From NCBI GenBank assembly GCA_030612725.1, contig JAUWNJ010000006.1, positions 62,001-126,000 on the forward strand: DNA of 64,000 bases, in the 5' to 3' direction. The position numbers were made by a program, and so were the translations under genes. Of the stretch, positions 2,513 through 26,877 are shown piece after piece; positions within the stretch are counted from its first letter, which is position 1, and each line of letters opens with the position of its first letter. Under the pieces are notes generated by a model, which saw nothing but the letters and a program-made list of their open reading frames with translations, had not been told where the DNA came from and ran no database searches. The stretch comes from Planctomycetales bacterium. GTDB taxonomy: Bacteria; Planctomycetota; Phycisphaerae; SM23-33.

Positions 2513-4608
2513 TGGGTTCTCCCGGGGCTCGCAGCGCGGCCTGACGCGCGCCGACCGGTCCCCTTTTTCTCTATTCCGGGCTTGCCTTCCTTCAGCGGTA
2601 CGGTAACTATCACCGGCTTGGCTCGGGGCAGTGAGACGCTGATGCGAATTACCCCGTCGCTTTCTGATACGATTTCGGCCTTCGCCTGCGGTACTGCGCC
2701 CTTGGCGGGAACGAGAATCCACGCAAACGTGGTTGTCTTCTCGATCTTCGCCGAATAGACGGCTGTGGGGTTAGGCTCCTTGACGTTGTATCTCACGCTG
2801 TACCAGCCCTGGATGCTCGGCTTTTCCCTGCCCTTGACGATCTCCAACTTCCACGGCAAGTCCGAGGCCGGTACGATCCTTAAGTTGCCCTTGCCGGCAT
2901 CGGTGGATGTAATCGTGCCGTCCTGAACCGCCACCGTGCAGGCGGGATGGTAATGCCACAAGACCTGAATATCGCGCGGTTTGTCGGTCGTAACCCGGTC
3001 AACGACGACCCAGAATTTCCCGCGAACGTAAAGCACCGCCCGCGTGTGAACGACCTTGCCCTTGATTCCCTTGAAACCCTTGTCAAAGACGCCGCGGGCG
3101 TAATCGAAAGCGGGTTCGATAGCGTAACTGTCTTTTTTCAGGGGTTTTCGGGCCTCCCGCCGGCCTGGGTTCTGCCCGTGCCCGTCGATGAGGATAACAT
3201 TGTGCGAGGCGGATCCGATGAAATATTCCCGCCAGGTACCCTTGCCGCCGCCGTAACTCTTGTATGTATAGCGTCCGCCATCGACCAGCAGATCCCTGCC
3301 GTAGGCAGCCACAGACAGGTGGAGTTTGTCGTAGTGCCAGTGGCTTATTCCCAATGGACCTGCATCGAAGAGCGCCCAGTGCGCGCCGGCGTCCCATCCG
3401 CTCCGCATGATAATTTGCCCTGCCCAGGGGAAAATGATCGTAGGTTGTCCCTTGGGCTTTTTACCCTTCCGGCCGTTGGCGGCGATGTATGTCCAGTCGG
3501 GCCTTTTGTACCTTTTGGAAGCGTCAAGGACTCTCTGGCGGTTGAAGTCGCGGTCGGAGTCATTATTCAGCGGTCCGTGCCCGTCGGGGCGGATGGAATA
3601 GGCGAGGTAGTTCCACATCTTTTCCAGGCTTTCCGCGAATTCTGTCGGAAGATTCCTGCCCGATTGCCGCAGCACGTCCGCGAAGCGTTGAAAGGCCTTC
3701 AGTGCCACCCAGTGATAGTGGGATGTCAGTTCCTTCTGTACGCCGTCGGGATACAACTGCCTCGTTATTTGGGTAAGCATGCGCTTTACCGCGTAGTCGG
3801 TCCAGGCGTCGGCATCGGCAAACTCAGGCCAGCATACGCCGGCGGTCGCCAGGCCATGCATCTCCATCGCAATCCAGTTGCTGCCGGCGGCGTGGAAATG
3901 TTTGTTGTAGTGCGCGTGGTCGGGCATCGCCGAGAGCATCAGTATGCGCGCCGCCGGTGTGAACTCGTTGACCTGTTGCAGGCCATAGAAAATATCCGCC
4001 CAGTGCACGACCCGAAAATAGACCTCCAATCCACGCCACTGCGGCGTGCTGTTCCGCTTTCCGGGATACGGGCTTGATGTAACCCAGTCCCGGACGTGTT
4101 CGTCGATACGCCGGACGTAAGCGATGTTGCCTGTTTTGAAGTAGGCGTCCATCAGTTCTTTCAGATGGAATTGCCGATTCAGCGCCCATGCCCATTCCTT
4201 GTCCTTTTCGGGTCCGCGGTAGGTCCATTTGAGCCCGCCTGACTTGAGCCGGGGCGCTTTCCCCTCAACGCACTGGAACGTGAAGGTGTCCTTGAGCATT
4301 TTCTCGCAGGACGGGTCGGTTCGGTTTCCCGGTTCGGGCGGCTTCTTCCGAAGCCACTTTCCCGAATCGCTCCGCCGATAGTATTTCAGCAGTTCCCGGC
4401 AGGCGGCGGGGAAGTCCTTCTTTCCCGTAGCCGATTTGACTTGCTCCAGACCCTTGCGCTCCAGGTCCAGAGCGGCGAACAACTTGACCACGCGCTCCGG
4501 ATGCTTCCGGCAGACCCATTCGACACTTGTTTCTTCTTTCGGCGTAGCCATTGCAACTCCCCAAATACCCAATAATACCCAACACAGAACAGCGAATCTT
4601 TGTTTCAT
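2509..4608 (-). CDS. Heparinase II/III family polysaccharide lyase, secreted
   Basis: A 699-residue protein starting MKQRFAVLCW with a signal peptide (residues 1-24, cleavage near VAMA-TP). Residues about 80-420 form a helical toroid-type N-terminal domain. Residues about 425-690 are the beta-sheet heparinase II/III domain, with the hallmark stretch HWALFDAGPLGISHWHYD followed by LLVDGGRYTY and SHNVILIDG. Members of this family cleave uronic-acid polysaccharides (heparan sulfate, alginate and similar) by beta-elimination in the periplasm. ATG 4606-4608 is chosen because it begins the signal peptide and overlaps the upstream reductase stop as ATGA. The downstream glycosidase-like gene is coupled in the same way. 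The exact substrate cannot be read from sequence. Confidence 0.85.
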   Translation of the reverse strand: MKQRFAVLCWVLLGIWGVAMATPKEETSVEWVCRKHPERVVKLFAALDLERKGLEQVKSATGKKDFPAACRELLKYYRRSDSGKWLRKKPPEPGNRTDPSCEKMLKDTFTFQCVEGKAPRLKSGGLKWTYRGPEKDKEWAWALNRQFHLKELMDAYFKTGNIAYVRRIDEHVRDWVTSSPYPGKRNSTPQWRGLEVYFRVVHWADIFYGLQQVNEFTPAARILMLSAMPDHAHYNKHFHAAGSNWIAMEMHGLATAGVCWPEFADADAWTDYAVKRMLTQITRQLYPDGVQKELTSHYHWVALKAFQRFADVLRQSGRNLPTEFAESLEKMWNYLAYSIRPDGHGPLNNDSDRDFNRQRVLDASKRYKRPDWTYIAANGRKGKKPKGQPTIIFPWAGQIIMRSGWDAGAHWALFDAGPLGISHWHYDKLHLSVAAYGRDLLVDGGRYTYKSYGGGKGTWREYFIGSASHNVILIDGHGQNPGRREARKPLKKDSYAIEPAFDYARGVFDKGFKGIKGKVVHTRAVLYVRGKFWVVVDRVTTDKPRDIQVLWHYHPACTVAVQDGTITSTDAGKGNLRIVPASDLPWKLEIVKGREKPSIQGWYSVRYNVKEPNPTAVYSAKIEKTTTFAWILVPAKGAVPQAKAEIVSESDGVIRISVSLPRAKPVIVTVPLKEGKPGIEKKGTGRRASGRAASPGRTQ

Positions 4609-5693
4609 CGGTTTTCTCCCAATCCGGCGATGTATTTGAGTCGTTCGATAATCGGCAGGTGCTGGGTGCACTTGTCCTCGCACTGGCCACACTCCACGCA
4701 CGCGCGGGCCTCCTCCGGCGACAGACCCCAATGCCACTTGAGGCGGTTGATGATATCCTGATCGCCTTGTCCCAGTATCTTGCTGTTGTATGACTCCATG
4801 AACTTGGGGATTTCCACACCCTCCGGACAAGGCAGGCAGTACCCGCACTGCGTGCAAAGATTGTCGAACCCCTCCTCAATTCTGCTTTTAAGATTCGCAA
4901 CGTGTTCAGCGTCGTAAGGCTGGAAGTTTTCGACGGCAGCGACGGCCTCATCGACGTGCCGCTTTGTCGTAAAGCCCACAAGGGCACTGGTAATGGCAGG
5001 GTGTGAGACGTTGAAACGAATGGCAGACTCGACGACGCTTCGGTCGTCCGGTCCTCGCAGAAAATCCAGTCTTTCGGTCATGCCGGGGATCAGCCCGCCG
5101 CCGAGCGGATTCATCGTTACTACGCCAATGTCCATCTCGGCTGCACACTCCAGCGCATCGGCGCGGAACGGGAAGTTCAGCACGTTGTAGCCGATGGTTA
5201 TCCCTTCGAGAACGCCTTCGTGGACGATGTCGCAGATTTCCGCGCCGGTGATGTGCAGCGAGGCGGCAACATGCCCGATTAGCCCTTCGTCTTTGGCCTT
5301 AACGGCCGCTGCAATCGCCCCGCCGGCTTTGCGCCGAGGCCACTGGTCGGCCCCGGTAATGCACCAGATGTGGAAGAAGTCGATTTTTTCGACGTTCATC
5401 CGCCGAAGCGACTTTTCGAGGTCGTCCCGCAGTGCATCGCCGTCAGCCTTGTTCGATTTGGTCGAACAATAGAACGACTCCCTCGGCATCTGCTTAAAGG
5501 CCACTCCGAAGGTCTCTTCGCTCTTTCCGGCGTTGTAGCCCGGAGCGGTGTCGAAATAGTTTATCCCTTTTGCGTGGGCGTACAGCAGCAGTTCGGCATT
5601 GGCGTCGAGGTCGTCGATGTTATCGAACCGCATACCGCCGAATCCGACCACGGAAATCTCTTTACCCGTCCTGCCGTAAGGTTTGTACCACAT
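4605..5693 (-). CDS. Aldo/keto reductase with C-terminal Fe-S motifs
   Basis: A 362-residue protein with an AKR TIM barrel at residues about 1-270: GFGGMRFD near the N-terminus, the catalytic region NYFDTAPGYNAGKSE, and IDFFHIW where the active-site His strand lies. A C-terminal ferredoxin-like part follows with two cysteine clusters, CTQCGYCLPCP and CVECGQCEDKCTQHLPI, which fit 4Fe-4S binding. This architecture is common in predicted oxidoreductases of anaerobes and planctomycetes. It is the first gene of a minus-strand operon and is coupled by ATGA to the heparinase-like gene, so it probably acts on a sugar or uronate product. That link is inferred from context. Confidence 0.88.
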   Translation of the reverse strand: MWYKPYGRTGKEISVVGFGGMRFDNIDDLDANAELLLYAHAKGINYFDTAPGYNAGKSEETFGVAFKQMPRESFYCSTKSNKADGDALRDDLEKSLRRMNVEKIDFFHIWCITGADQWPRRKAGGAIAAAVKAKDEGLIGHVAASLHITGAEICDIVHEGVLEGITIGYNVLNFPFRADALECAAEMDIGVVTMNPLGGGLIPGMTERLDFLRGPDDRSVVESAIRFNVSHPAITSALVGFTTKRHVDEAVAAVENFQPYDAEHVANLKSRIEEGFDNLCTQCGYCLPCPEGVEIPKFMESYNSKILGQGDQDIINRLKWHWGLSPEEARACVECGQCEDKCTQHLPIIERLKYIAGLGENR

Positions 5694-15107: not shown

Positions 15108-15225
15108 GCCGATATCTTTACATCTCTGAGGCGGGATGGGCGGTGTGTTGACGGCCTTGGGTTTCTCCTGCCGGGATGGGACAGTTTCTGTACTGATAAG
15201 TTCGCGTCAAGAGAGGAGCATATCA

Positions 15226-18200
15226 ATGCGTGAGAAGACTAATGTCGATTCGCAGGTTCGGCAGGTTCAGCCGATGTTCGAGCAACTCGAACCGCGGTTG
15301 CTGCTGGATGGTGCGCCTTTCAGCGTCCCGCATGACGTGGCTGTAGGGAATGGCCCGGTGGGCATCGTTTCGGGTGACTTTAACGGCGACGGGCTGGTGG
15401 ACCTGGCTGTCACGAACCCAAACGACGACGACGTTAGCGTGCTGCACGGGCTTTCCGGGGGTGGATTCGGGCGGCAGGACGTGGTTGTGGGAGATGATCC
15501 GCGGGGCATCGTTTCGGACGACTTCAATGACGATGGATGGATGGACCTTGCCGTCACAAACTACACTGGTAAAAGCGTGTACGTGCTGTACGGCCTTGAG
15601 GCTGGCGGTTTCGACAGTCAACGTGTTGTGTCCTCATCAATAAGTACTCTCCATGGCATCGTTTCAGGGGACTTTAACGACGACGGACGGGCGGACCTCG
15701 CCGTCACGAGCATCACTGATGTAGGGGATGGTCTCGTGTGCATTATGTACGGCCTTGAGGCTGGCGGCTTTGGCAACTTCCAAATCGTGGCCGTGGGGCG
15801 TTTTCCGCTTGGCATCGTTTCAGGGGACTTCAACGGCGACGAGCGGACGGACCTCGCTGTCACGAACTACTTTTCCAACAACGTGAGCGTGCTATACGGC
15901 CTTGAGGCCGGTGGCTTCGGCAACATCCGGACCGTGGCCGTGGGTGAACGTCCCTATGGAATCGTTTCAGGGCATTTCAACGGTGACGGTCGCGTGGACC
16001 TAGCGGTAACGAACGAGTACGACGACGACGTGAGCGTGCTGTATGGGCTTTCCGAGGGTGGATTCGAGCGACAGGACGTGCCTGTGGGAGATGGTCCGCG
16101 GGGCATTGTTTTGGACGACTTCAACGGTGACGGGCGAGCGGACCTTGCCATCGCTAACCTTAACGGCAACGACGTTAGTGTGGTGTATGGCCTTGTGGTC
16201 GGTGGTTTTAACAGCCGGCAGGATGTGGCCGTGGGGAGTGGTCCATGGGAAATTGTTTCAGGGGACTTCAATGGCGACGGTCGCGCTGACTTAGCCGTCA
16301 CGAACTTCTATGACGACGACATAAGTGTGCTGTACAACCAGCAAGGTGTTAAGGTTATTCGTCCCGGAGCAGGTGTTAGCGAGTGGGAATCTTCGGACTC
16401 TGCTGGCAAGGCAGCGGATTCGGAATGGGCCGACGAGGGCGGAATGGTGCTGGACCCAGGGCTTTTCTCCGGGGACGCCCAGCCGGTCTATCGCTTCAAT
16501 TTACCCGAATCCATTATTGTCGGAGAGAACACCAGCGTGACCGTTTCCATTTACGGCAAGGGTAAGGACTGGTCTTATGAGCCGGCACTATGGGTCGGAC
16601 CGGAAGGCAGCCGCTACCTGTTGACCGACCATCTCCCCGAAGCCGAGGGATGGACACACTTCGAAGTACCGGCGGATCAGTTGGCGGGTCTCATGGTGGA
16701 TGCCGGGGCTGTCATGCCCGGTTATACGCTGGACGTAATGGTGGATGCGCAATATGACGTAGTGGTTTGGGACTGGTACGACCTCAAAGAAGTTCGCATC
16801 AACTACACGCATGAAGGGGTTTCCTCGCTCGGTATTCAGTCCTACCAAACTGTTCTAAACGGAGCATCGGCTGTCCTTAACTTCTATGAGGATATAGCCA
16901 GCGCCTGGCCCCAGCCGCTCCTGGCTCAAGGTGATCTGGCGCAGTTGTTGCAGCCTTCTATTCCAACCGTATCTCTGGGGGTTCCTTTTCTTGATATTGC
17001 ATGGGAGACTTTCGGATTAATCCATGATTTCGAGCTATTGTATGACGTATTGGGCGGGGTTTTTACATGGATGGACTTTATGATGAGCGTTGACGTCTAT
17101 CCTGGCAGCGAGACAAATAGTGCGTTCCAGGCCTTTGCGAATCTCGGTACGAACTGGTGGGATGCGTTAGAGGACGATGGGCAAATCTCCGATGGCGAGG
17201 CCGGGACGATCAATAGCGCTATCCAGAACACTCAGGACCGGCTCGACGACCTGGAAGCCGAGTTGATTGATGTCGCTGCGGACATGGAGGGATTTCTCAG
17301 CCATACGGACCCGGGTGTTGTCAACTACGCAAAGCTGGGACTCCAGGCTCTGGCCCCAATGCTTCTGTTTGACCCCGACACCGGCGATGGCCCCACGGCA
17401 AACAGCTACCTACCCGCCTTGAATCAGATGATAGGGGACCTTTGGGTGAATAGGTCTCCCACTGGAATTTCCCTCAGCAGCACGAGCGTTCCGGAGAACC
17501 AGCCCACCGATACTGTTGTCGGTACATTCAGCACAACAGATGACCCGGGGGACACGCACGCTTATGAACTGGTCAGCGGTGCGGGCGATGATGACAACGG
17601 TTCCTTCTGGATCAATGTGAATACGCTCAAGACTGACGAATCGTTCAATTATGAGGGGAAGGACACTTACAGCATCCGCGTTCGTTCGACGGACCAGGAC
17701 GGGCTATATACCGATAAGATCTTCACGATAAACGTTACGAACGTTAACGAGCAGCCGACGGACATTGCTCTGTCGAACAACGCAGTGGCCGAGAATCAGC
17801 CGGCAGGGACCGTAGTCGGTGTGCTGTCGGGGACGGACCCGGATGCCGGCCAGAGCGCGACGTTAACGTTCAGCCTTGTGCCGGGCTACGGCGATAACTC
17901 CCAATTCAGCATTGACCCGGCGACCAAACAGTTGAAGACCGCAGCGGCATTCGACTTCGAGTCAAAGAGCAGTTACAGCATTAAGCTGCTGGCAACGGAC
18001 GCCGGCAGCCCGGTACTGAGTTACGAGGAAGTCTTCGCGGTGAATGTAATCGACGTGCCGGACGCTACGATAGCCGGCCGGTATGTCTTCTACAACCGCT
18101 CGTATTTCGACGGCAATGATGTAGCCGCCAACACAGCTGACGACACCGCAATCGACACCAGCAAGACGTCCCTGTTGCCTGGCCAGACCGCAACCTTTGC

Positions 18201-19101
18201 CAACTACACCAGTTACAGCCGAGGTATCAACGGCATCATGATCGACATCGACGGTCTGGCGGGTACGCCGACGGCTTCCGATTTTACGTTCAAGGTCGGC
18301 AACAACGACGATCCGAGCACCTGGGTAACCGCCGCTACCCCAACAATCGCATCACCTCGGGCAGGTGAAGGTGTTGACGGGTCTGACCGCGTGACGATCA
18401 TCTGGGCGGATGGGACTATTCAGAAGCAGTGGTTGCAGGTAACTGTGCTGGCCACAGCCAACACCGGCCTGGCCGAGCCGGACGTGTTCTACTTCGGCAA
18501 CCTGCCCGCGGATTTCAGCGGAGCCTGGACGGTTAACGTGGCGGACTTGGGCATCCTGGCTGGGTCGTACGGACAAACGTTTCCTGCGCCTGTGATGCTT
18601 CAGGGCGACGCCAATGCGGACTGCAAGGTGGATGTGGCTGATCTCGGCATTATGGCTTCTTCCTACGGATTAGCGCTGAGCACCTTAACCGCGCCGGTTT
18701 CCGGCGGCGCCAGCGCGGGGGCTACAATAGTAATGGCTGGATCGGGATACGATGATCCGTATGACGGCCTGGCTGCGCCTTCGATGACAAATCCCATTCT
18801 TGGACAAGTGTCCGAATCGGCGAGATTGCCGGTCTTGCAATGGTCTTCCGCCATGAGAACGTCTCCTTCTGAAGAAGCGGCCTCGCAGAGCGCTGCGAGG
18901 AAGGCTCTGAGCGGCACCCTGGATAGCAATTTGCTGGTCCCGTCCCCGGTGGACATAAGAACTGACAGGCCAATGGCCTTGGCTACTGCAAACACAGACC
19001 CTGGTGATGATGCTCCCTATGGCGGGACAGAACCTTTCGACGATGACTTGATGGTTGATCTCCTTGCCGGTCTTGAGGCTGGAGTCTTTCTGAGGATTTG
19101 A
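15226..19101 (+). CDS. Secreted LEPR-motif protein with FG-GAP repeats, cadherin-like repeats and dockerin-like end
   Basis: A 1291-residue protein. The N-terminus FEQLEPRLLLDGAP (residues 22-35) is the LEPR-XLL type motif typical of exported planctomycete proteins. Seven FG-GAP/VCBS repeats (about 40-372) follow, each near 50 residues with a calcium-binding DFNGDGRxDLAVTN core. Next come a beta-rich module (about 372-540), a helical stretch (about 565-740), two cadherin-like repeats (about 745-845 and 845-945), a module with YNRSYFDG and RGINGIMIDIDG (945-1100), and two dockerin-like half-repeats, VNVADLGILAGSYG and GDANADCKVDVADLGIM (1103-1148). A low-complexity tail ends the protein. ATG 15226 has GAGAGGAG ahead; an earlier in-frame ATG would put 30 residues before the motif. 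It is probably cell-surface or extracellular and adhesive, with no enzyme domain visible. Confidence 0.85.
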   Translation: MREKTNVDSQVRQVQPMFEQLEPRLLLDGAPFSVPHDVAVGNGPVGIVSGDFNGDGLVDLAVTNPNDDDVSVLHGLSGGGFGRQDVVVGDDPRGIVSDDFNDDGWMDLAVTNYTGKSVYVLYGLEAGGFDSQRVVSSSISTLHGIVSGDFNDDGRADLAVTSITDVGDGLVCIMYGLEAGGFGNFQIVAVGRFPLGIVSGDFNGDERTDLAVTNYFSNNVSVLYGLEAGGFGNIRTVAVGERPYGIVSGHFNGDGRVDLAVTNEYDDDVSVLYGLSEGGFERQDVPVGDGPRGIVLDDFNGDGRADLAIANLNGNDVSVVYGLVVGGFNSRQDVAVGSGPWEIVSGDFNGDGRADLAVTNFYDDDISVLYNQQGVKVIRPGAGVSEWESSDSAGKAADSEWADEGGMVLDPGLFSGDAQPVYRFNLPESIIVGENTSVTVSIYGKGKDWSYEPALWVGPEGSRYLLTDHLPEAEGWTHFEVPADQLAGLMVDAGAVMPGYTLDVMVDAQYDVVVWDWYDLKEVRINYTHEGVSSLGIQSYQTVLNGASAVLNFYEDIASAWPQPLLAQGDLAQLLQPSIPTVSLGVPFLDIAWETFGLIHDFELLYDVLGGVFTWMDFMMSVDVYPGSETNSAFQAFANLGTNWWDALEDDGQISDGEAGTINSAIQNTQDRLDDLEAELIDVAADMEGFLSHTDPGVVNYAKLGLQALAPMLLFDPDTGDGPTANSYLPALNQMIGDLWVNRSPTGISLSSTSVPENQPTDTVVGTFSTTDDPGDTHAYELVSGAGDDDNGSFWINVNTLKTDESFNYEGKDTYSIRVRSTDQDGLYTDKIFTINVTNVNEQPTDIALSNNAVAENQPAGTVVGVLSGTDPDAGQSATLTFSLVPGYGDNSQFSIDPATKQLKTAAAFDFESKSSYSIKLLATDAGSPVLSYEEVFAVNVIDVPDATIAGRYVFYNRSYFDGNDVAANTADDTAIDTSKTSLLPGQTATFANYTSYSRGINGIMIDIDGLAGTPTASDFTFKVGNNDDPSTWVTAATPTIASPRAGEGVDGSDRVTIIWADGTIQKQWLQVTVLATANTGLAEPDVFYFGNLPADFSGAWTVNVADLGILAGSYGQTFPAPVMLQGDANADCKVDVADLGIMASSYGLALSTLTAPVSGGASAGATIVMAGSGYDDPYDGLAAPSMTNPILGQVSESARLPVLQWSSAMRTSPSEEAASQSAARKALSGTLDSNLLVPSPVDIRTDRPMALATANTDPGDDAPYGGTEPFDDDLMVDLLAGLEAGVFLRI

Positions 19102-19357
19102 CCAGCGAATGAGCGTAACATGTGGACGTCGTATGCCAACGCCTTCGGTACGAACGGTTCGGCCGACCCTCAGGCTCTGACTTCATCCCATCGGTAGCGG
19201 ATTGCGCCGTTGTGGTATGACAACGGGTTCGATGCCGGTCGGCTTCGTGACATTTTTGCATCTCTCTACACGTTCAAAAGTGTAGCACCACGATTGCCGA
19301 TCTGGATTACGGGGCGATGATGTCTCGCAAAATCTTTGCTTACAAGCAGAAGTGTAA
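19102..19357 (+). other. Gap between surface protein and integrated element, possible coding remnant
   Basis: No intact gene. A frame from ATG 19120 (MWTSYANAFGTNG...) is interrupted by a TAG after 25 codons and continues open as RIAPLWYDNGFDAGRLRDIF... for about 40 codons to a TGA near 19320. I do not recognise it. A small hairpin CTACAC/GTGTAG lies at about 19267-19286. Confidence 0.3.
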
Positions 19358-19378
19358 TGGGCGCGACAGGACTCGAAC
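19358..19378. repeat. Distal att site of the element
   Basis: A 21-bp sequence (TGGGCGCGAC...CTCGAAC) identical to 26804-26824, the T-arm/acceptor end of tRNA-Val on the minus strand. It is flanked on the left by unrelated chromosomal sequence. Confidence 0.85.
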
Positions 19379-19563
19379 AATCGGCGAAAACGCCCGTAAA
19401 ATCACCAATTCCGAAAACAGGCGGCGCACTTTCAGGCGCACTTTCCGGCGATTCCGCGCCGAATCTGACCGAACTGACAGCGATGTTATCCGGCATGAGC
19501 GCCGCCGACAAGAAAATACTCGCGGCGTTGCTGACAGACAAGGGGAAGGACGGGCAGGAATGA
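19379..19563 (+). other. Alternative integrase 3' end, displaced by integration
   Basis: Sequence right of the distal att core reads, in the integrase frame, QSAKTPVKSPIPKTGG... to a TGA at 19561-19563 (61 residues, ending KDGQE). When the element is circular, the frame entering the core at 26804 would continue here, giving an integrase of 484 rather than 429 residues. The in-frame codons left of the core are chromosomal and have no plausible start, so in the integrated state this is probably not a separate gene. Confidence 0.7.
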
Positions 19564-19823
19564 CCCAGGACGCCCCCCACAAGTCGCCAGGACTGCATCA
19601 GGACGCGAGCCTGCCCGCACAGGGCAACGAACCGCCCGAAACCGTACCAGAATACCTACGGGATGTAGATCGCTGTTTCTGGCGAGCCAAGACACGATTG
19701 ACGCCGCCGGGCGTTCCGGCGGATACAGAAGGCCCGGCACAGGCCGAGCGGGAAATTGACGGACTGCCCGACGTGGACGAAATCGACTTGAAGCAGGATC
19801 GTCCGCTCACAGTCGCCGGTTGA
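19560..19823 (+). CDS. Small hypothetical protein of the element
   Basis: 87 residues (MTQDAPHKSPGLHQDASL..., ending KQDRPLTVAG), acidic and proline-rich, with no recognised domain. The ATG overlaps the stop of the displaced integrase tail as ATGA, so in the circular form it would be translationally coupled to the integrase. The coupling is the main reason to believe it is real. Function unknown. Confidence 0.5.
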   Translation: MTQDAPHKSPGLHQDASLPAQGNEPPETVPEYLRDVDRCFWRAKTRLTPPGVPADTEGPAQAEREIDGLPDVDEIDLKQDRPLTVAG

Positions 19824-19908
19824 GTCCGGGCGGCACAGGTTGTAGAATCCAGGCATCGGGACGGCGGCGGTCCGTCAAGGCGATCCAACTCTTTGAAAGG
19901 GCTGAACT

Positions 19909-20736
19909 ATGAAGCGGACACTTCTACTTTGTCTTGTTATCGGCGTGGCGATTACTACGGGTTGGATGCTTGGCCATCAACCGTCCTATGCGGAGCGTGC
20001 GGCACGACGCGATAACGGCTGGACTGGCGTCGTTACAAGGGAGCAGTTGACCGGGGGGCCAAGATTCAACGGCAATGTTGTTACTTGGTCCGACAGTCGC
20101 GGCAATCTTTGCGCTTGGCACATGGGTCAACGATATGTGCTTGCTAGGAATGGTCAGTATATGACCAAAACGGTCCAGCCGGGCGTCGGAATGGTCTTCT
20201 GGAAAAGCACGCGAGTTAACGAATACAAGGCGTGGATTGCGCCGGGTTCCGCCGTGGTACATAGATCTGCGCCTCGATCTGACGCTAGTCCGGCAAAGGA
20301 AGCAGAAGCGGCGCGACAGCGCGCCATTAAATTCAACCTTCAAACCGCCCGCAATATCGACCCGGACAGGTTTGCCGCCGGACGAATACAAAGCAAGATT
20401 GCAAAGATAGAAGCCACGTCCGCTTTGCAGGCGGCACAACGAAAAGCGAGAGAGACCGCCCGGCAGATTTCGGAGAAAGCCCGAATCGAAGGGGCCGAAC
20501 GGAATCGAAAGAGCGAGGATCGCATTAATCGTGAAATCAACGAAGCGATTGCCAAGTTGAGTAAGGTATATCCCGAACTTGCAAAAGATTCTGCAACGAT
20601 TAAGCGTTGGGAAAATGAGGCGGCGAGGATTCTTCGCGCCTCCATTCCGGGACCAGACGCCGAGCCGGAGGCCAAGCCTTTGACTATCGAGGAAGCATTT
20701 AGGCGGGCGGCAGTAGCATTGACAGGCCGAAAGTGA
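19909..20736 (+). CDS. Hypothetical exported coiled-coil protein
   Basis: 275 residues. An N-terminal signal peptide or membrane anchor (MKRTLLLCLVIGVAITTGWMLG) is followed by a beta-type region (about 35-115, GNVVTWSDSRGNLCAWHMGQ) and a long charged helical segment (about 125-235) rich in Ala, Lys, Glu and Arg that should form a coiled coil. I recognise no family. The ribosome-binding phrase TTTGAAAGGG lies 7 nt before the ATG and is shared with other element genes. A phrase ATCGGGACGGCGG in its leader (about 19855) recurs just before the next gene, pointing to a duplicated leader. Confidence 0.7.
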   Translation: MKRTLLLCLVIGVAITTGWMLGHQPSYAERAARRDNGWTGVVTREQLTGGPRFNGNVVTWSDSRGNLCAWHMGQRYVLARNGQYMTKTVQPGVGMVFWKSTRVNEYKAWIAPGSAVVHRSAPRSDASPAKEAEAARQRAIKFNLQTARNIDPDRFAAGRIQSKIAKIEATSALQAAQRKARETARQISEKARIEGAERNRKSEDRINREINEAIAKLSKVYPELAKDSATIKRWENEAARILRASIPGPDAEPEAKPLTIEEAFRRAAVALTGRK

Positions 20737-20798
20737 AAAAGAATATCGGGACGGCGGCTTGCAACTGCCAAGCGGTCCCTGGTTGGCGTGCTCGTTAC

Positions 20799-20849
20799 TT
20801 ACCCTTTCAGGCGCTCCACCGGGGACCGGCCCGACCTTTGAAAGGGTAA
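20799..20849 (+). promoter_or_regulatory. Hairpin that can sequester the ribosome-binding site of the next gene
   Basis: TTACCCTTTCA (20799-20809) is a perfect 11-bp complement of TGAAAGGGTAA (20839-20849), which contains the Shine-Dalgarno sequence of the gene starting at 20853. A second possible pairing, GGTCCC (20774-20779) with GGGACC (20822-20827), could form an alternative fold. The geometry fits translational control. Confidence 0.5.
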
Positions 20850-20852
20850 AAG

Positions 20853-21470
20853 ATGACGCTACAAGACACTTTCCGAGAAGCCTACAGGGATGTTGCGCTG
20901 AAGGTACACAAATTGCTTTCCTTTCCGGGAGCCAGAGAGACTTTCGGACGGCACTTCAAAGAATACAAGGAGCGTTCGAGCGGCAAGCGGCGAAACCTTA
21001 CGGCGAAATACACCAGACTTGCCGTTTTGCATGGCCTCTGCTTCCCTGACGAAGCGATAGACCCACTTATCATTTCCGACTCCTGCAAATACAATAAAAC
21101 GTGGTCGGTGGCCACTCCTCTTGCCTGGTCTGCTGACAATGACAAGAACCGCGCTGGCACAATAATGGACTTGGAAGCCGACCTTGCCGACGTGGAGGCC
21201 GACTTGGAGGCCAACGCGCCCGGGCAGGATGAAGGCGAAGCAAAGGCGGTGGACGAACCCCAAGGGACGCCGAAAACTAATCCCCAACTCATCTATCAAT
21301 CTGACGGAGCGGAGTTCTACAACATTCCCAAGAGCACACTTTCCAAGGCGGCCAACAAGGAACCAGGCGAGCCGGGGTATCTCTGGTCTGGCCACACGGG
21401 GCGCAGGGTTTTTTATCGCAGGGCCGACTTGCAAAAAATCAGCCGCAGTCGGCAGAAACTTGGCGGATAG
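20853..21470 (+). CDS. Hypothetical protein with C-terminal HTH-like segment
   Basis: 205 residues. The N-terminal half (about 1-100) is basic and helical (HKLLSFPGARETFGRHFKEY). An acidic linker follows (about 105-145, DLEADLADVEADLEA). The C-terminus (about 150-200, EFYNIPKSTLSKAANKEPGE then GRRVFYRRADLQKISRSR) has the pattern of an excisionase/HTH_17-type DNA-binding domain. ATG 20853 has AAAGGG four to nine bases ahead, within the hairpin described. It is probably a DNA-binding protein of the element; the precise role is unknown. Confidence 0.65.
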   Translation: MTLQDTFREAYRDVALKVHKLLSFPGARETFGRHFKEYKERSSGKRRNLTAKYTRLAVLHGLCFPDEAIDPLIISDSCKYNKTWSVATPLAWSADNDKNRAGTIMDLEADLADVEADLEANAPGQDEGEAKAVDEPQGTPKTNPQLIYQSDGAEFYNIPKSTLSKAANKEPGEPGYLWSGHTGRRVFYRRADLQKISRSRQKLGG

Positions 21471-21481
21471 TTTCCGTTGGT

Positions 21482-21559
21482 GTTCACAGTCAACGCTTTT
21501 TCGATGTAGAAAAGCCGCTATTTACGGGGGCAATCTCGCCTTTACGAGTTCACAGTCAA
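21482..21559 (+). promoter_or_regulatory. Pair of 12-bp direct repeats before the HTH genes
   Basis: GTTCACAGTCAA occurs at 21482-21493 and again at 21548-21559, 66 bp apart, in the short gap before the first excisionase-like gene. They may be binding sites for an element-encoded HTH protein. Confidence 0.35.
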
Positions 21560-21593
21560 GTTTCTAAAAGTTTCTCGCGTTAGATTCTATGAC

Positions 21594-21812
21594 ATGAAAA
21601 CGACGCGAGAGATTGCAAGGGAATTGAACATCACGCCGGCGGCTCTGCGGCAGCATATTGCCGCTGGGAACATCGCCTCCCCGAAACGGCGAGCCGGGAT
21701 GATGTTCTTGTGGACTTCAAGAGAGATAGAAATTGCGCGGCAGGTTTTGAGTGAGCCAGGACGCAGACGGCCCCGGTATGTCGCCAAGGCGCTGATGGGG
21801 GGCCTCCGATGA
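21594..21812 (+). CDS. Small HTH protein, MerR/excisionase-like
   Basis: 72 residues. The N-terminal helix-turn-helix REIARELNITPAALRQHIAAG is followed by SPKRRAGMMFLWTSREIEIAR, where a wing and dimer helix would lie. It is typical of HTH_17/MerR-like excisionases and small phage regulators. Its stop overlaps the ATG of the next HTH gene as ATGA, so the two are co-translated. It may act as recombination directionality factor or repressor. Confidence 0.65.
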   Translation: MKTTREIARELNITPAALRQHIAAGNIASPKRRAGMMFLWTSREIEIARQVLSEPGRRRPRYVAKALMGGLR

Positions 21813-22027
21813 AAACTGACACCGCCCCCGCAACCATTACACCGCTGCTATTGAACATGCGCGACGCAGCGAGATTCCTGGCAATCGGCGAAAGGACTCT
21901 CTGGTCATTGACTGTTCCACGCGGGCCGATCCCATCTGTTCGCATCGGGCGCGCCTGTAGATTTGACAGACGTGATTTAATCGCCTTCGCCGACAGCCGA
22001 AAGGAGGCTTCGTCATGCAGCGAGTGA
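21809..22027 (+). CDS. Excisionase-family HTH_17 protein
   Basis: 72 residues. LLNMRDAARFLAIGERTLWSL is the classical AlpA/HTH_17 opening, followed by PSVRIGRACRFDRRDLIAFAD, the usual second half of this domain. Such proteins control excision or expression of integrated elements. ATGA overlap upstream; the next small gene starts 13 bases before this one ends, behind AAAGGAGG. Confidence 0.75.
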   Translation: MKTDTAPATITPLLLNMRDAARFLAIGERTLWSLTVPRGPIPSVRIGRACRFDRRDLIAFADSRKEASSCSE

Positions 22028-22194
22028 ACAAAAATCGCCTCCGTCCGTCTGCGGGAGAACAGGCATTGCGCCGGGCTGAACGACGGCGAATCCAAAGGCT
22101 GCACGGTGGCAAGTGGACGCGCGAGGCCAAGGGTGAGTTTCAAGCGTTCTTGCGGCGGCGTGCTTGTGGGTGTTTTGAGGGTCGTGCGCTATGA
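22015..22194 (+). CDS. 59-residue basic hypothetical protein
   Basis: MQRVNKNRLRPSAGEQALRR begins a 59-residue, very arginine-rich protein ending in RRRACGCFEGRAL. It is preceded by a near-perfect Shine-Dalgarno AAAGGAGG seven bases before the ATG, and its TGA overlaps the ATG of the replication gene (ATGA). Those two signals support translation. It may be a nucleic-acid-binding accessory factor; no family recognised. Confidence 0.6.
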   Translation: MQRVNKNRLRPSAGEQALRRAERRRIQRLHGGKWTREAKGEFQAFLRRRACGCFEGRAL

Positions 22195-23048
22195 AGCCGG
22201 GCAACAACACACCGAATGGCGAACCCATTGACACCGGCTTCTGGCGTCTCCAACACGAGCACCTTGCCGCCGTGCTTGCCCGCAATGACCTGTCCTGGGA
22301 ATCGGCTCGCGTCTATCTCGCCCTGGCCGACATGACCCTGGGATACGGCAAGACGCGCGATGTTGTCAGCCTGGGGCAGATTGCCGACCGGGCCGGGATG
22401 ATCCGCTGCCACGTGGTCCGCGCCCTGAAGCGTCTGGCAGACTTGGGGCTGTACGGGCAAAGCCGTGCAAGGGGTCAGCAGATGGCGCGATGGGTAATCT
22501 GGCCGCCGCCTGCTGTTACCGAGGCTGGTACTAGTACCGAGGCCGGTAACAGAAGTGTTGCCGAGGCTGGTAACAGAACTGTTACCGAAGGTGTTACCGG
22601 GGCTGGTACACACCAAGACACCAAGAAAGGGAAGAAATTAAAGAAGGGGGAAAAAAGCGCGGCAAAGCCGCCCGCCGCCTCTGGTAAAAACTTTTCCTTG
22701 ACGCCTGGGGACCACAAAGGCAACGGCGACGTGGGCCGACTGGTCGGGCTTTGGGTCGAGGGCTTTCAGTCCCGCATCGTGAAGCCCTTCGCAAAGAGCG
22801 CCCGGGGACGGCTGGCAGGGACAATCAAGAATCTGCTGGGGGAATTTGCGACTGACGATCTCGCCGCTGCAATCGGGCGGTGGTTCAGCGAGAGTCGGCA
22901 AAGTTATAGCATCGGGCTTTTCAAGGTCAAGTTGGAGGATGGCGACGCCGACCTTACGGGCCGCGTTGTTGAAGAAAAATACAAGGGGCATGTCAACAAG
23001 GCGAGCGCCAAGGCAGCCAGAGACGGCGCGCTCCTGGAGGAACTCTGA
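22191..23048 (+). CDS. Phage replication protein O-like initiator
   Basis: 285 residues. Residues about 12-105 resemble the N-terminal winged-helix domain of phage replication protein O (DTGFWRLQHEHLAAVLARN, LSWESARVYLALADMTLGYG, CHVVRALKRLADLGLYG). A repetitive linker (about 108-140, built from TEAG units) and a lysine-rich stretch follow, then a C-terminal domain (about 175-285). In lambda the O initiator binds iterons inside its own gene and recruits helicase; here the gene also carries repeats (22517-22608) and is followed by a DnaB-type helicase whose ATG overlaps the stop. This strongly suggests the element's replication initiator. Confidence 0.7.
   Translation: MKPGNNTPNGEPIDTGFWRLQHEHLAAVLARNDLSWESARVYLALADMTLGYGKTRDVVSLGQIADRAGMIRCHVVRALKRLADLGLYGQSRARGQQMARWVIWPPPAVTEAGTSTEAGNRSVAEAGNRTVTEGVTGAGTHQDTKKGKKLKKGEKSAAKPPAASGKNFSLTPGDHKGNGDVGRLVGLWVEGFQSRIVKPFAKSARGRLAGTIKNLLGEFATDDLAAAIGRWFSESRQSYSIGLFKVKLEDGDADLTGRVVEEKYKGHVNKASAKAARDGALLEEL
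22517..22608 (+). repeat. Iteron-like repeats inside the replication gene, candidate origin
   Basis: Five 14-bp units related to TACCGAGGCTGGTA start at 22517, 22535, 22559, 22583 and 22595 (spacing 18, 24, 24, 12). Most carry the dyad TACC-N6-GGTA. Between them lie perfect palindromes GGTACTAGTACC (22527-22538) and GGTAACAG-AA-CTGTTACC (22569-22586). An A/G-rich purine stretch follows at about 22612-22655. The layout resembles lambda ori. Confidence 0.5.
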
Positions 23049-24412
23049 TGCAGGTTCGAGAAATGCCACAATCCGCCGAAGCGGAAGTCTGCGTACTGGG
23101 GTCAATGCTTCTTGACCCTGACACCATCCCGGAGGCGCGGGAAATAGTCGGTGTTGATGATTTCTATCGCCCGGCTCATCGGACGATATTTGACGCTCTC
23201 TGCAAGATGCACCAGGCGGGATCGGCAATCGACCTTGTAATCTTTCAGAACTATCTCACCGACAACGGGCAGTTGGAAAAAGTCGGCGGCATCGAGTACG
23301 TCGATGATATTGTCAGTGGCGTACCAAGCGCGGCAAACCTGAAATACTACGCCGGTATCGTCCGCGAGAAGTCCGCCCTTCGGCAGTTGATCGGTATCGG
23401 AACGAAACTCGCCGACCGCGCCTACCACCCGGAAGGTTCCGCCGAAGGCCTGATTGACGAAACCCAGCAGCGGCTAATCGAGCAGGACGCCCGCCACAAG
23501 CGAATGGCCGGGAACGTCGCCGACGCCGGGGAGATTTCCGGGGCCGTCCTGAAACGAACCGAGGAGGTCTGGCGCAATCCCGATTGCTTCGTGGGACTGA
23601 AGACCGGCATATCCATTCTGGACAAGGCTACCGGCGGCCTGCGGCCCGGCAATTATGCTGTACTGGCCGGTGTAACCGGAAAGGGGAAAACCACACTGGC
23701 GACAAGCATCACCGAGAGCGTATGCAGACAGGGCAAGGCGGTTCTCTACATCAGCGCCGAGATGACGCCGGCGGAACTGATGGAGCGAATGCTTGCCGCC
23801 AAATCCGACATTTACCTTTCAAGAATCCGCAACGGGCGGTTGCGGGATGGCGACGTCAACAATGACTGGGGCAGACTGGCCGACGCCGATGCCAAAATCG
23901 CCCAGTGGAAACTACGAATCATCGGCAAGCCATTGAGCGTGCCGGAGATCGCCGCTGCGGTTCGGAAGTTCGGGCAGGACCTGCATCGGCCCGTGGACCT
24001 TGTGGTAATCGACTATCTCCAAAAGATGAAGGGGCCGGGGAATAGTCGTTACGAACAAGTCAGCGGTGTATCCGGCAACCTGAAAAATATGGCCTTGGAC
24101 CTTGGCGTGCCGCTGCTCGTGCTGGCGCAACTTCGGCGCGAGGTCGGCCAGAGCGGACGGAAGCCATGCCTACACGATCTGAAGGAAACGGGCGAGACGG
24201 AGAACGATGCCGATGTCGTCCTTCTACTGCACCATCCGCCAGACAACGGCCCCGACGTATTCGACCAGGACCAATACGAAGTCTGGTTGAAGATTGACAA
24301 GAATCGCAACGGCCCGGAGACGCCCTGGCCCAGCGAAACCGAGAACCAAAAGGGCGCAATCAGGCTGAAATGGAAACCATCCGTTACCCGGTTCAGTTGG
24401 CCGGTAGAGTAA
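23048..24412 (+). CDS. DnaB-type replicative helicase of the element
   Basis: 454 residues. The N-terminal DnaB domain (about 6-105: SAEAEVCVLGSMLLDPDTI) is joined by a linker to a RecA-type helicase domain (about 175-450) with Walker A GVTGKGKTTLA, Walker B LVVIDYLQ and the DnaB-specific region LVLAQLRREVG. It is the hexameric 5'-3' helicase for the element's replication. It resembles the chromosomal dnaB at 34137 in architecture but clearly diverges in sequence. Its ATG overlaps the initiator stop (TGATG) behind GGAGG. A loader remnant follows directly after its stop. Confidence 0.9.
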   Translation: MQVREMPQSAEAEVCVLGSMLLDPDTIPEAREIVGVDDFYRPAHRTIFDALCKMHQAGSAIDLVIFQNYLTDNGQLEKVGGIEYVDDIVSGVPSAANLKYYAGIVREKSALRQLIGIGTKLADRAYHPEGSAEGLIDETQQRLIEQDARHKRMAGNVADAGEISGAVLKRTEEVWRNPDCFVGLKTGISILDKATGGLRPGNYAVLAGVTGKGKTTLATSITESVCRQGKAVLYISAEMTPAELMERMLAAKSDIYLSRIRNGRLRDGDVNNDWGRLADADAKIAQWKLRIIGKPLSVPEIAAAVRKFGQDLHRPVDLVVIDYLQKMKGPGNSRYEQVSGVSGNLKNMALDLGVPLLVLAQLRREVGQSGRKPCLHDLKETGETENDADVVLLLHHPPDNGPDVFDQDQYEVWLKIDKNRNGPETPWPSETENQKGAIRLKWKPSVTRFSWPVE

Positions 24413-24598
24413 GGAGTTTGGAACGATGACCTGCCGACAATCATAACCAGCAACGTTGACCCTGATGCCCTGGTCGGAGCCGTGGACGGTCGGGTAGCGA
24501 GTCGGATTGCCGAATCACGGACGATGTTTGAATTTCCGAATCGCGACCTTCGAGTTGTCGGCACGGTAAGGGATGTTGACAAATGTCAACTTCGGTGA
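24413..24598 (+). pseudogene. C-terminal remnant of a DnaC/IstB-type AAA+ helicase loader
   Basis: In the same frame as the helicase and immediately after its TAA, 61 codons read GVWNDDLPTIITSN... then DGRVASRIAES. TIITSN (sensor 1 region) and DxRVxSRI (arginine-finger region) are hallmarks of DnaC-like loaders. No start codon, Walker A or Walker B is present, so the N-terminal two thirds are gone. It suggests that the element once carried an initiator-helicase-loader set. Confidence 0.6.
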
Positions 24599-24642
24599 GG
24601 ACACGAAAAGTGGAAAAAATCAAGCAGACACTTGACAGATTT

Positions 24643-24718
24643 TGTAGCCTCCGCCCAAGTGGAAAGTACCGTAAGCCCTTTTCACCTCGCCAGTTGCGGC
24701 TGCACAGGCGAGGCTACA
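24643..24718 (+). ncRNA. Candidate structured RNA or attenuator
   Basis: TGTAGCCTC(c)GCC (24643-24655) pairs with GGCGAGGCTACA (24707-24718) as a 12-bp stem with one bulge. Inside, GTGGAAAG (24659-24666) pairs with CTTTTCAC (24678-24685), one G-U pair. CCTCGCC (24685-24691) offers an alternative partner for GGCGAGG (24707-24713). It lies 55 nt before a regulator gene with no gene of its own, in the 24599-24772 gap. No poly-T follows, so a simple terminator is unlikely. Confidence 0.35.
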
Positions 24719-24772
24719 GTGTAAGACGGTGATTCAGGCGGCGTATAGTCAAGTAACATGTGAGGTGTTGAG

Positions 24773-25003
24773 ATGCCAAAGAAGCGAGTTGAACTTTCGG
24801 ACCAGATACGCCGGGCGGTGCGAACCTCCGGCAGGAGTTGCTATTCGATCTGCAAGTGGTCCGGGCTTGACCAGTCGAGCCTTTCGCGGTTCATGCGCGG
24901 CGAGCGGGGCCTGTCAATGCGAAGCCTGGACGACCTGGCCGACATACTGAAATTGAACCTCCGAAGTCCACGAAGAAACCGGAAAAAACCGAGGACAGGA
25001 TAG
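24773..25003 (+). CDS. Small XRE/Cro-type HTH regulator
   Basis: 76 residues. The HTH region is SGRSCYSICKWSGLDQSSLSRFMRG followed by RSLDDLADILKL, the canonical five-helix Cro/C1 pattern, and a basic tail. GAGGTG lies six bases before the ATG. It sits at the boundary between replication and regulatory/integration genes and may control the promoter at 25022, which is flanked by an inverted heptamer. Confidence 0.75.
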   Translation: MPKKRVELSDQIRRAVRTSGRSCYSICKWSGLDQSSLSRFMRGERGLSMRSLDDLADILKLNLRSPRRNRKKPRTG

Positions 25004-25005
25004 CA

Positions 25006-25055
25006 CACTTTGCGAGAAAAGTTGACGGCAAACGCCGATGGTGTATAACAAAGTG
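25006..25055 (+). promoter_or_regulatory. Promoter flanked by inverted operator-like heptamers
   Basis: TTGACG (25022-25027), 16-nt spacer, TATAAC (25044-25049). CACTTTG (25006-25012) and CAAAGTG (25049-25055) form an inverted pair enclosing the promoter, a layout expected for a Cro/C1-type repressor. It precedes the gene at 25078. Confidence 0.45.
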
Positions 25056-25077
25056 CGAAAGTGAAAGGGTACATGCC

Positions 25078-25293
25078 ATGAGCGACACTGATCCAAAATC
25101 ACGGAAGAAGCAGGAGCGGGAGGCTTACTCGCGCGCGCTAAAGGCAATACCGCGTGGCGTATTTCTAAAGGTGCATCGGATGATGTCCTCGCCCGATACG
25201 TCAACGGAAAACTCTCCGGCGCCAAAGCCGCCTGATGAAACCAGTAAAGAGCCGTCCCCGAATGACGAAAAGGTGAGCCATGAGCAAAGGTAA
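25078..25293 (+). CDS. Small hypothetical protein
   Basis: 71 residues, very hydrophilic: a basic helix (RKKQEREAYSRALKAIPRGV, about 8-30) followed by a Pro/Ser-rich acidic tail. AAAGGG lies about eight bases before the ATG, the same ribosome-binding phrase used by the element genes at 19909, 20853 and 25555. Its end overlaps the start of the following XRE gene by 14 bases. No family recognised. Confidence 0.5.
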   Translation: MSDTDPKSRKKQEREAYSRALKAIPRGVFLKVHRMMSSPDTSTENSPAPKPPDETSKEPSPNDEKVSHEQR

Positions 25294-25516
25294 ATCACTC
25301 GTTGAACGTCTGAAAGACGAAATCCGCAAAGCAGAGAAGCGGGGCCTGACGCGCTATCGAATCGCCCAAGAGTCCGGCATAAGCGAAGCACAATTGAGCC
25401 GTCTCATGGCCGGGACGGTTGCCCCCAGGCTGGACACGGCGGAAAAGATTGCTCATGTCCTGGGGCGGAAAATAATTATCACTTCTGCGAAAATGGACTT
25501 GACAAAGCGTAAGTAG
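25280..25516 (+). CDS. XRE-family transcriptional regulator
   Basis: 78 residues. RYRIAQESGISEAQLSRLMAG then RLDTAEKIAHVLG is a clear Cro/C1 helix-turn-helix, preceded by a charged helix (SLVERLKDEIRKAEKRG). AAAAGGTGAG precedes the ATG. It overlaps the gene upstream by 14 bases and lies 38 bases before the integrase, so it is well placed to control integration and excision. Confidence 0.8.
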   Translation: MSKGKSLVERLKDEIRKAEKRGLTRYRIAQESGISEAQLSRLMAGTVAPRLDTAEKIAHVLGRKIIITSAKMDLTKRK

Positions 25517-25554
25517 TAACGTAGAATCTTCACGGGGCAATGAAAGGGTAAGTC

Positions 25555-26844
25555 ATGGCAAGCATATCAACGAATCAAAAGACCGGCAGGCGGATAATTC
25601 TCTTTACCGGACTCGAAGGGCGGCGGCAGTCGATACGCTTCGGGGCGATAAACAAGCGGCAGGCGGATACGGCCAAACTGCATATCGAGGATTTACTTAC
25701 CAGCCGGATCGCCGGAACCGCGCCGAAAGATACGACGTCTCAATGGCTTGCCGGCCTGCCCGATACATTCCGCAAACGCCTGGAGCGAGTCGGGCTGACA
25801 GGTCCACGCCGCCGCCGGGCATGTCCGACGCTGGGCGCTTGGCTGGAATCATATTTCGTTGGCCGGTCAGACGTGAAGGAATCAACGACAATCGCCTGGG
25901 GCCATACGCGGCGGAACCTGTTGGCGTTTTTCGGTCCGTCAAAACGGCTGGACGAAATAACACCCGCCGACGCGGACGCCTTCCGTATTGACCTGAAAGC
26001 AAGCGAACCCTTGGCGGAAAACACTCGCCGACGACGAATGAGTATAGCCGGGCAGTTTTTCCGCGCTGCTGTCCGGGCGAAACTTATCACCGAAAACCCC
26101 TTTGACGGACAGAAAACGACTCTGCTGAAAACTACGGCGCGGGATTACTTTGTAACTGGCGCGGAAGCCCAGGCGGTTCTTGACGCCTGCCCTGACCCCC
26201 AGTGGCGGCTTATCTTCGCCTTGTGTCGATACGGGGGCCTGCGATGTCCGACGGAAGTCTTACGGTTGCAATGGCAGGATATTGACTGGGCGAATTCAAT
26301 TATGGTAGTCCACGCGGCAAAGACCGAACATCACGAAGGCGGCGGAGTCCGGCGGGTTCCGATCTTCCCGGAGATTCTGCCACACCTTCGGCAAGTCTTT
26401 GAGGAAGCCGCGCCGGGGACCGAGCGAGTTATCACCCGTTACCGTGAAGCGAGCGCGAACCTGCGAACACAACTGGCGCGGATAATCAAAAGGGCGGGCT
26501 TGGAATCCTGGCCGAAATTGTTTCAGAACTGCCGGGCGTCAAGAGAAACGGAACTGGCGGAAACTTTCCCGCTGCACGTTACTTGTGCATGGCTTGGCCA
26601 CACGCCGAAAGTGGCGATGAAAAACTACTTGCAGGTAACGGCAGAGCACTTTGAAAAAGCGACGCAAAAAGCGACGCACTTTCCGGCGCAGTATCCTACC
26701 GCAACGGGCTGCACGGACTCGCAAGCCGAACCTTCACAAGAGCAGAAACCCCCGTTTTTACAGGACTATGCGAAGCCGTGCGATTCTATGCAAAATCATC
26801 TAGTGGGCGCGACAGGACTCGAACCTGTGACTTCTTCCGTGTAA
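25555..26844 (+). CDS. int: Tyrosine recombinase/integrase
   Basis: 429 residues in the integrated state. The N-terminal arm-binding region (about 1-95) is basic; the core-binding SAM-like domain (about 98-190) contains STTIAWGHTRRNL. The catalytic domain (about 195-375) has Arg230 in RYGGLRCPTE, a Lys in AAKTEHHEGG, NCRASRETEL where HxxR is usual (the second Arg is present, the His replaced), WLGHT, and Tyr358 in MKNYLQVT. The frame then crosses the att core and ends in tRNA-derived codons (GATGLEPVTSSV). The ribosome-binding phrase TGAAAGGGTAA is shared with other element genes. In the circular form the tail would differ. Confidence 0.92.
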   Translation: MASISTNQKTGRRIILFTGLEGRRQSIRFGAINKRQADTAKLHIEDLLTSRIAGTAPKDTTSQWLAGLPDTFRKRLERVGLTGPRRRRACPTLGAWLESYFVGRSDVKESTTIAWGHTRRNLLAFFGPSKRLDEITPADADAFRIDLKASEPLAENTRRRRMSIAGQFFRAAVRAKLITENPFDGQKTTLLKTTARDYFVTGAEAQAVLDACPDPQWRLIFALCRYGGLRCPTEVLRLQWQDIDWANSIMVVHAAKTEHHEGGGVRRVPIFPEILPHLRQVFEEAAPGTERVITRYREASANLRTQLARIIKRAGLESWPKLFQNCRASRETELAETFPLHVTCAWLGHTPKVAMKNYLQVTAEHFEKATQKATHFPAQYPTATGCTDSQAEPSQEQKPPFLQDYAKPCDSMQNHLVGATGLEPVTSSV

Positions 26845-26877
26845 GGGAAGCGCTCTAGCCAACTGAGCTACGCGCCC
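26804..26877 (-). tRNA. tRNA-Val (anticodon UAC)
   Basis: 74 nt on the minus strand with acceptor GGGCGCG/CGCGCCC, D-stem GCTC/GAGC, anticodon stem CTTCC/GGAAG with loop CTTACAC, T-stem ACAGG/CCTGT and TTCGAGT loop. CCA is not encoded. Its 3' 21 nt are the att core used by the mobile element, which restores the gene after integration. The end of the integrase gene overlaps it antisense. Confidence 0.95.

Follow-up and report, generated by a model that had tools for sequence, protein, structure and literature searches.

Planctomycete integrase genes that appear to enclose their attachment site and to exchange a C-terminal hairpin upon integration

An integrase frame that crosses the attachment core

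Does integration of a mobile element alter the integrase that the element encodes? The question is raised by the window analyzed here, a 64,000-nucleotide stretch of a Planctomycetales genome in which a tRNA-Val gene carries an integrated 7.4-kb element. A preliminary description of this DNA had stated that the integrase frame stays open through the 21-bp att core, that in the chromosome it ends after 429 residues with codons antisense to tRNA-Val, and that a circular element would encode 484 residues by way of a 61-codon tail reaching position 19563. The relevant features are as follows.

19358 to 19378, + strand: attL core, 21 bp, a displaced copy of the tRNA-Val 3' end, exactly repeated at 26804 to 26824 and spanned by an empty site in genome G005
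19378 to 19563, + strand: tail of the integrase frame beyond the core, 61 codons plus stop, linked to the integrase gene only in the circular form
22191 to 23048, + strand: replication protein O-like gene of the element (PF04492)
23048 to 24412, + strand: DnaB-like replicative helicase gene of the element (PF03796, PF00772)
25555 to 26844, + strand: tyrosine integrase gene, integrated form, 429 amino acids (PF00589, PF13102; PHROG 1)
26803 to 26877, - strand: tRNA-Val(tac), identified by ARAGORN and restored by the element's core
26804 to 26824, + strand: attR core, read in frame by the integrase gene as V-GATGLE

The two core copies are identical and form an exact 21-bp repeat, TGGGCGCGACAGGACTCGAAC. 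The boundaries of the element are supported by an empty site in a genome of the same family (G005:C95:977-1149), which consists of the left flank, the core and the tRNA without interruption and matched the joined flanks with 91% identity over query positions 13 to 185. With the tRNA 3' end restored, a displaced copy of the core and an empty site, the window element meets the criteria for tRNA targeting. No capsid gene was recognized among its scanned open reading frames (ORFs), and this, together with the replication genes, suggests an integrative plasmid or a phage satellite. Small helix-turn-helix proteins also are encoded by the element (window 19358 to 26824). Directly to its left lies a repeat-rich ORF of 1,321 residues (15136 to 19101), in which FG-GAP-like and cadherin-like repeats were recognized by eye.

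The integrase is a tyrosine recombinase of the phage integrase type. Its PF00589 match (E value, 3.8e-9) places the catalytic domain at residues 200 to 364 of 429, and R230, K256, R327 and Y358 fall in invariant alignment columns. The integrated form ends in ...VGATGLEPVTSSV followed by a stop, inside tRNA-Val on the antisense strand; the catalytic domain is complete in this form, and the tail is absent. Computational joining of the two core copies gave a circular frame of 484 amino acids, ...VGATGLEQSAKTPVKS...GKDGQE, in which the tail codons (19378 to 19560) start after the last whole codon of the core and the stop lies at 19561 to 19563. The exact repeat read in phase, the ORF with its end within the ARAGORN tRNA, and the joined frame bear out all three statements of the preliminary description, which was correct and, as the following comparisons indicate, understated.

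Recurrence of the in-frame tail across Planctomycetota

The 61-residue window tail alone, searched against other genomes of the class, matched relatives with a best E value of 1.8e-6. These relatives are orphan frames with a tRNA-antisense-type start (GLE or GFE), followed by GGAxSGA and then by DPDLAxIVxAWPxLPxxIR. A profile built from six tails gave matches in 42 of 392 genomes of the phylum. The tail was matched by no Pfam, PHROGs or NCBIfam model, and searches of phage and plasmid collections gave no meaningful match.

Starting from the tail yielded 11 elements in which the integrase frame crosses the shared core into the tail in the same frame. Selection on the tail was avoided in a sample of 40 integrases drawn from the phylum, the majority of which terminate antisense within a tRNA. 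Where attL was located, 15 elements within 20 kb and 5 more within 60 kb enter a homologous tail in frame; sampled elements without a located attL could conceal further exceptions. Two larger elements (G567 and G193) were identified because the residues surrounding the core agree between their two ends. Among named genome contigs, 61 of 80 integrases have a tRNA-antisense end, and an in-frame tail was present in every integrase whose core was found in the fetched 10 kb; six of these elements were new to the count, including those of Candidatus Kuenenia and Adhaeretor mobilis, of which strain HG15A2 carries a 9.5-kb element at tRNA-Leu (L326). In total, about 39 integrated elements of planctomycetes are known at both ends and have an integrase frame running through the core into a homologous tail, a few possibly being duplicated between collections. 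Their target tRNAs include Val, Ile, Met, Leu, Glu, Ser, Phe, Lys and others, and the core is read in more than one codon phase.

Past the core, the median open length of the integrase frame is 64.5 codons (range, 41 to 122), compared with 23.5 for the other two frames (26 elements). A chance open frame is ruled out by the homology of the tails, the agreement in frame and the codon test given below. Two exceptions were seen: a 22-bp core followed by 41 open codons without homology to the tail (L218), and cores of 17 to 18 bp with only 1 to 15 codons after the core (L200). Candidate cores of 15 bp in L190 and L222 were treated as chance matches. Related elements with the att core outside the integrase frame, or with a tail not conserved as protein, had been named in advance as refuting the proposal; in the elements compared, the core lies inside the frame and the tail is conserved as protein.

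The uninterrupted gene also occurs in free viral contigs. In five distinct viral-contig integrases (L098, L104/105, L106, L108/109 and L112/125), the integrase, a core-like sequence and the tail form one gene. A tRNA-derived core was plain by eye in L098, L108/109 and L112 but not in L104. L109, from a free contig, has 74% DNA identity up to the core with its integrated relative L111, which has tRNA-Ser at its attR, and diverges thereafter; judged by sequence, this is the closest before-and-after pair available. In more distant viral relatives, such as L113 and L114, the frame stops soon after the core-like sequence. Circular permutation of the phage contigs G654 and G655 was rejected as proof of a circle, there being a 26.3-kb overlap and no shared ends, and the contigs with L108 and L109 are overlapping linear fragments that do not prove a circle. 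The evidence throughout consists of sequence and prediction, mostly from metagenome-assembled genomes.

Two kinds of constraint within the tail

The tail divides into two parts, and the first has counterparts in the linker that precedes the core.

19423 to 19450, + strand: putative P' arm-type sites, tandem GGCGCACTTTC(A/C), with CGCACTTTCCGGCG common to the integrase linker
19462 to 19560, + strand: coding region of the C-terminal helical hairpin (NLTELTAMLSGMSAADKKILAALL...), placed by profile alignment A3; hairpin predicted in L109 and L104
26659 to 26691, + strand: putative P arm-type sites in the integrase linker (GCGACGCAAAAAGCGACGCACTTTCCGGCGCAG), repeats matched to the tail

Sharing of CGCACTTTCCGGCG between the window tail and linker arose in 0 of 200 shuffles. 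More generally, a given element carries the repeat of the GGAxSGA part (GGCGCAnnnTCCGGCGCA-like) in its integrase linker as well, where the codon phase often differs. Linker and tail repeats matched at 17.1 of 20 positions within an element, compared with 14.2 across elements and 11.1 and 11.4 for control regions, and none of 20,000 permutations over 26 elements equaled the within-element pairing. Four-fold-degenerate third bases of this part have an identity of.672, against.349 expected. By these sequence measures the GGAxSGA part is constrained as DNA. Because the repeats match element by element on both sides of the core, they are probably P and P' arm-type sites, although there are no binding data; since they flank the core within the frame, the whole attP would lie inside the integrase gene.

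The second part behaves differently. In the hairpin columns, identity is.48,.59 and.36 at codon positions 1, 2 and 3, four-fold third bases are near neutral (.349 versus.326 expected), and conserved Leu and Arg columns use up to six codons, as expected of a constraint inferred to act on protein. AlphaFold2 models of two different fused integrases predicted a C-terminal helical hairpin (pLDDT about 78 to 94 in L109 and about 80 in L104), with the linker, core and arm region disordered. N-terminal strands and a helix also were predicted in both, and no arm-binding Pfam match was obtained. The window hairpin is diverged and lacks the W-P motif.

These data bear on the notion that post-core conservation is a matter of DNA only, the P' arm repeats happening to lack stops and so leaving a frame open by chance. 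The constraint on the GGAxSGA part and its reappearance in the linker, frequently with a changed codon phase, are what that notion predicts, and for the arm part it holds. It fails the codon test for the hairpin, where third positions are free yet residues are conserved; moreover, a hairpin is predicted structurally and the tail is in the integrase frame in all counted elements. As an account of the whole tail we consider it very improbable.

A further occurrence of the hairpin was seen at L089:490-1659, where the frame of a different, Xer-like tyrosine recombinase runs via tRNA-antisense-like residues into the same WPxLP hairpin, which may be a module common to several integrase lineages.

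Proposed exchange of the hairpin and its possible consequences

We think it very probable that these integrase genes carry a complete attP near their 3' ends, such that the hairpin is present only in the circular or phage form, exchanged on integration and regained on excision. The gene would be ordered as catalytic domain, disordered linker with P arm sites, core from the tRNA 3' end, P' arm sites and short helical hairpin, and a circle or phage would express it as a single frame giving full-length integrase. Integration by crossover within the core would strand the hairpin frame at attL without its gene, so that the frame at attR ends about 10 codons later in the tRNA antisense strand; excision would restore the full-length gene. 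Both isoforms are inferred to be made, in the absence of circle, transcript or protein data. As the truncated integrase keeps the whole catalytic domain, it should still excise. We infer that with the hairpin the circular form of the enzyme has a property that the prophage form lacks, most likely one used in assembly or regulation of the integrative complex. Sequence comparison shows the arrangement of the gene, its repeated occurrence and a constraint on the hairpin at the level of protein. It is only inferred, without functional measurement, that the two forms have different activities or that they govern direction or the downstream replication genes.

Lambda attP is not part of the int reading frame. 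The planctomycete integrases resemble lambda Int in catalytic fold (best Foldseek match, 1z1b) and in having the core between arm-like repeats, but here arms and core are coding. The archaeal suicidal integrases of SSV1, pTN3 and pT26-2 likewise have attP inside the integrase gene, which is split by integration and restored by excision; there the N-terminal part is parted from the catalytic part, leaving the enzyme inactive, and such integrases were described as exclusive to archaea (PMC8371274). The elements described here reside in bacteria, their integrase keeps an undivided catalytic domain, and nothing but the C-terminal hairpin is exchanged. In mycobacteriophage integration-dependent immunity (BPs and others), attP is in the repressor gene, the target is a tRNA and integration removes the C terminus, giving two forms; the lost part is an ssrA-like degradation tag without arm-type sites (PMC9262239). 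The planctomycete system shares the coding attP, tRNA target, C-terminal truncation on integration and two encoded forms, but its attP is in the integrase gene, arm-like repeats flank the core and the part lost is a helical domain. Islander-type tRNA islands also have an integrase beside a tRNA with a restored 3' end and a displaced fragment at the other end; a coding link from the integrase to the displaced-fragment side does not figure in the abstract that describes them (PMC4383910). We found no description of such an arrangement in bacterial integrases in the open literature; subscription papers were largely outside the search, and priority is uncertain.

Loss of the hairpin may achieve nothing: the hairpin could serve the working free-form integrase in folding or dimer contacts, its loss being a side effect, tolerated and without regulatory role, of keeping int and attP in one compact module. 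Such modules would be favored in exchange between elements and the catalytic domain is complete even where the tail is missing, which makes this a real possibility that we stop short of calling probable; it leaves unaccounted for that nearly all examined elements keep the hairpin after the core, when placement before the core would retain it in both states. Direction control of tyrosine integrases is usually credited to separate directionality factors. The hairpin might instead be a built-in direction switch, the full-length enzyme favoring integration and the shortened one being tuned for excision or silence, an idea that is speculative and, in our estimation, somewhat unlikely; if true, it would mean a phylum-wide self-editing recombinase in bacteria. 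Alternatively, the tail could be a degradation signal, the free-form integrase being unstable and stabilized by integration in the manner of the ssrA-like tags of mycobacteriophage repressors. Integration-dependent immunity is a precedent (PMC9262239), but the very ends of the tails are not conserved and have no LAA-like terminus, and it is an internal helical hairpin that is conserved. Judged from sequence alone, we regard this as quite improbable.

Integration could also act mainly through expression, and two further features of the window are pertinent.

19560 to 19823, + strand: 87-amino-acid ORF overlapping the tail stop by ATGA (19560 to 19563)
25499 to 25527, + strand: promoter-like TTGACA-17-TAGAAT before the integrase gene, the region's best match, agreeing at 11 of 12 positions

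In a circle, the integrase promoter could read through the tail into the 87-amino-acid gene, the O-like replication gene and dnaB, whereas in the chromosome it would read against tRNA-Val, on the tRNA antisense strand; replication genes would thus be wired to the integrase gene only after excision. The promoter-like site, the location of all recognized element genes on the + strand and the ATGA overlap agree with this. The coupling had been part of the preliminary description, and it is present in the window, but with only 7 of 26 elements having it, it is not a general feature. There are, in addition, further promoter-like sites within the element (e.g., 19820 to 19848). We judge this reading unlikely, though not to be dismissed. 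The 87-amino-acid ORF had no Pfam or PHROG match. Integration can generate an ATG in phase with the tail at the newly formed attL (A plus TGGGCG), as at window positions 19357 to 19359 and at several related attL sites, so that an orphan tail peptide from the chromosome is possible in principle.

If the proposed hairpin exchange is correct, the reaction yields DNA in which the gene of its own enzyme has been rewritten, and does so across a bacterial phylum; self-breaking integrase genes, previously described for archaea only (PMC8371274), would now extend to Planctomycetota. The exchange would explain why planctomycete integrase frames repeatedly end in GLEPVTSSV-like residues and why WPxLP reading frames occur as orphans. 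Core, GGAxSGA and WPxLP hairpin together offer a marker for element ends in planctomycete genomes, and the two integrase forms can be compared directly by expression.

The genome of the window also contains, on contig C33 (L023, about 3079 to 4894), the remnant of a second element of the same family at tRNA-Glu. A C-terminal piece of an integrase terminates there in tRNA antisense, and 1.8 kb from it lies an imperfect core that leads into a relative of the tail (GDAESGIL...AELMQMLSSLSAEDKTKLAA). Near attL of L148 and L151, and perhaps of L138, the DNA preceding the core looks like the integrase linker, as if from tandem insertion; in such an arrangement, the chromosome-side integrase would be fused to the tail of the newcomer.
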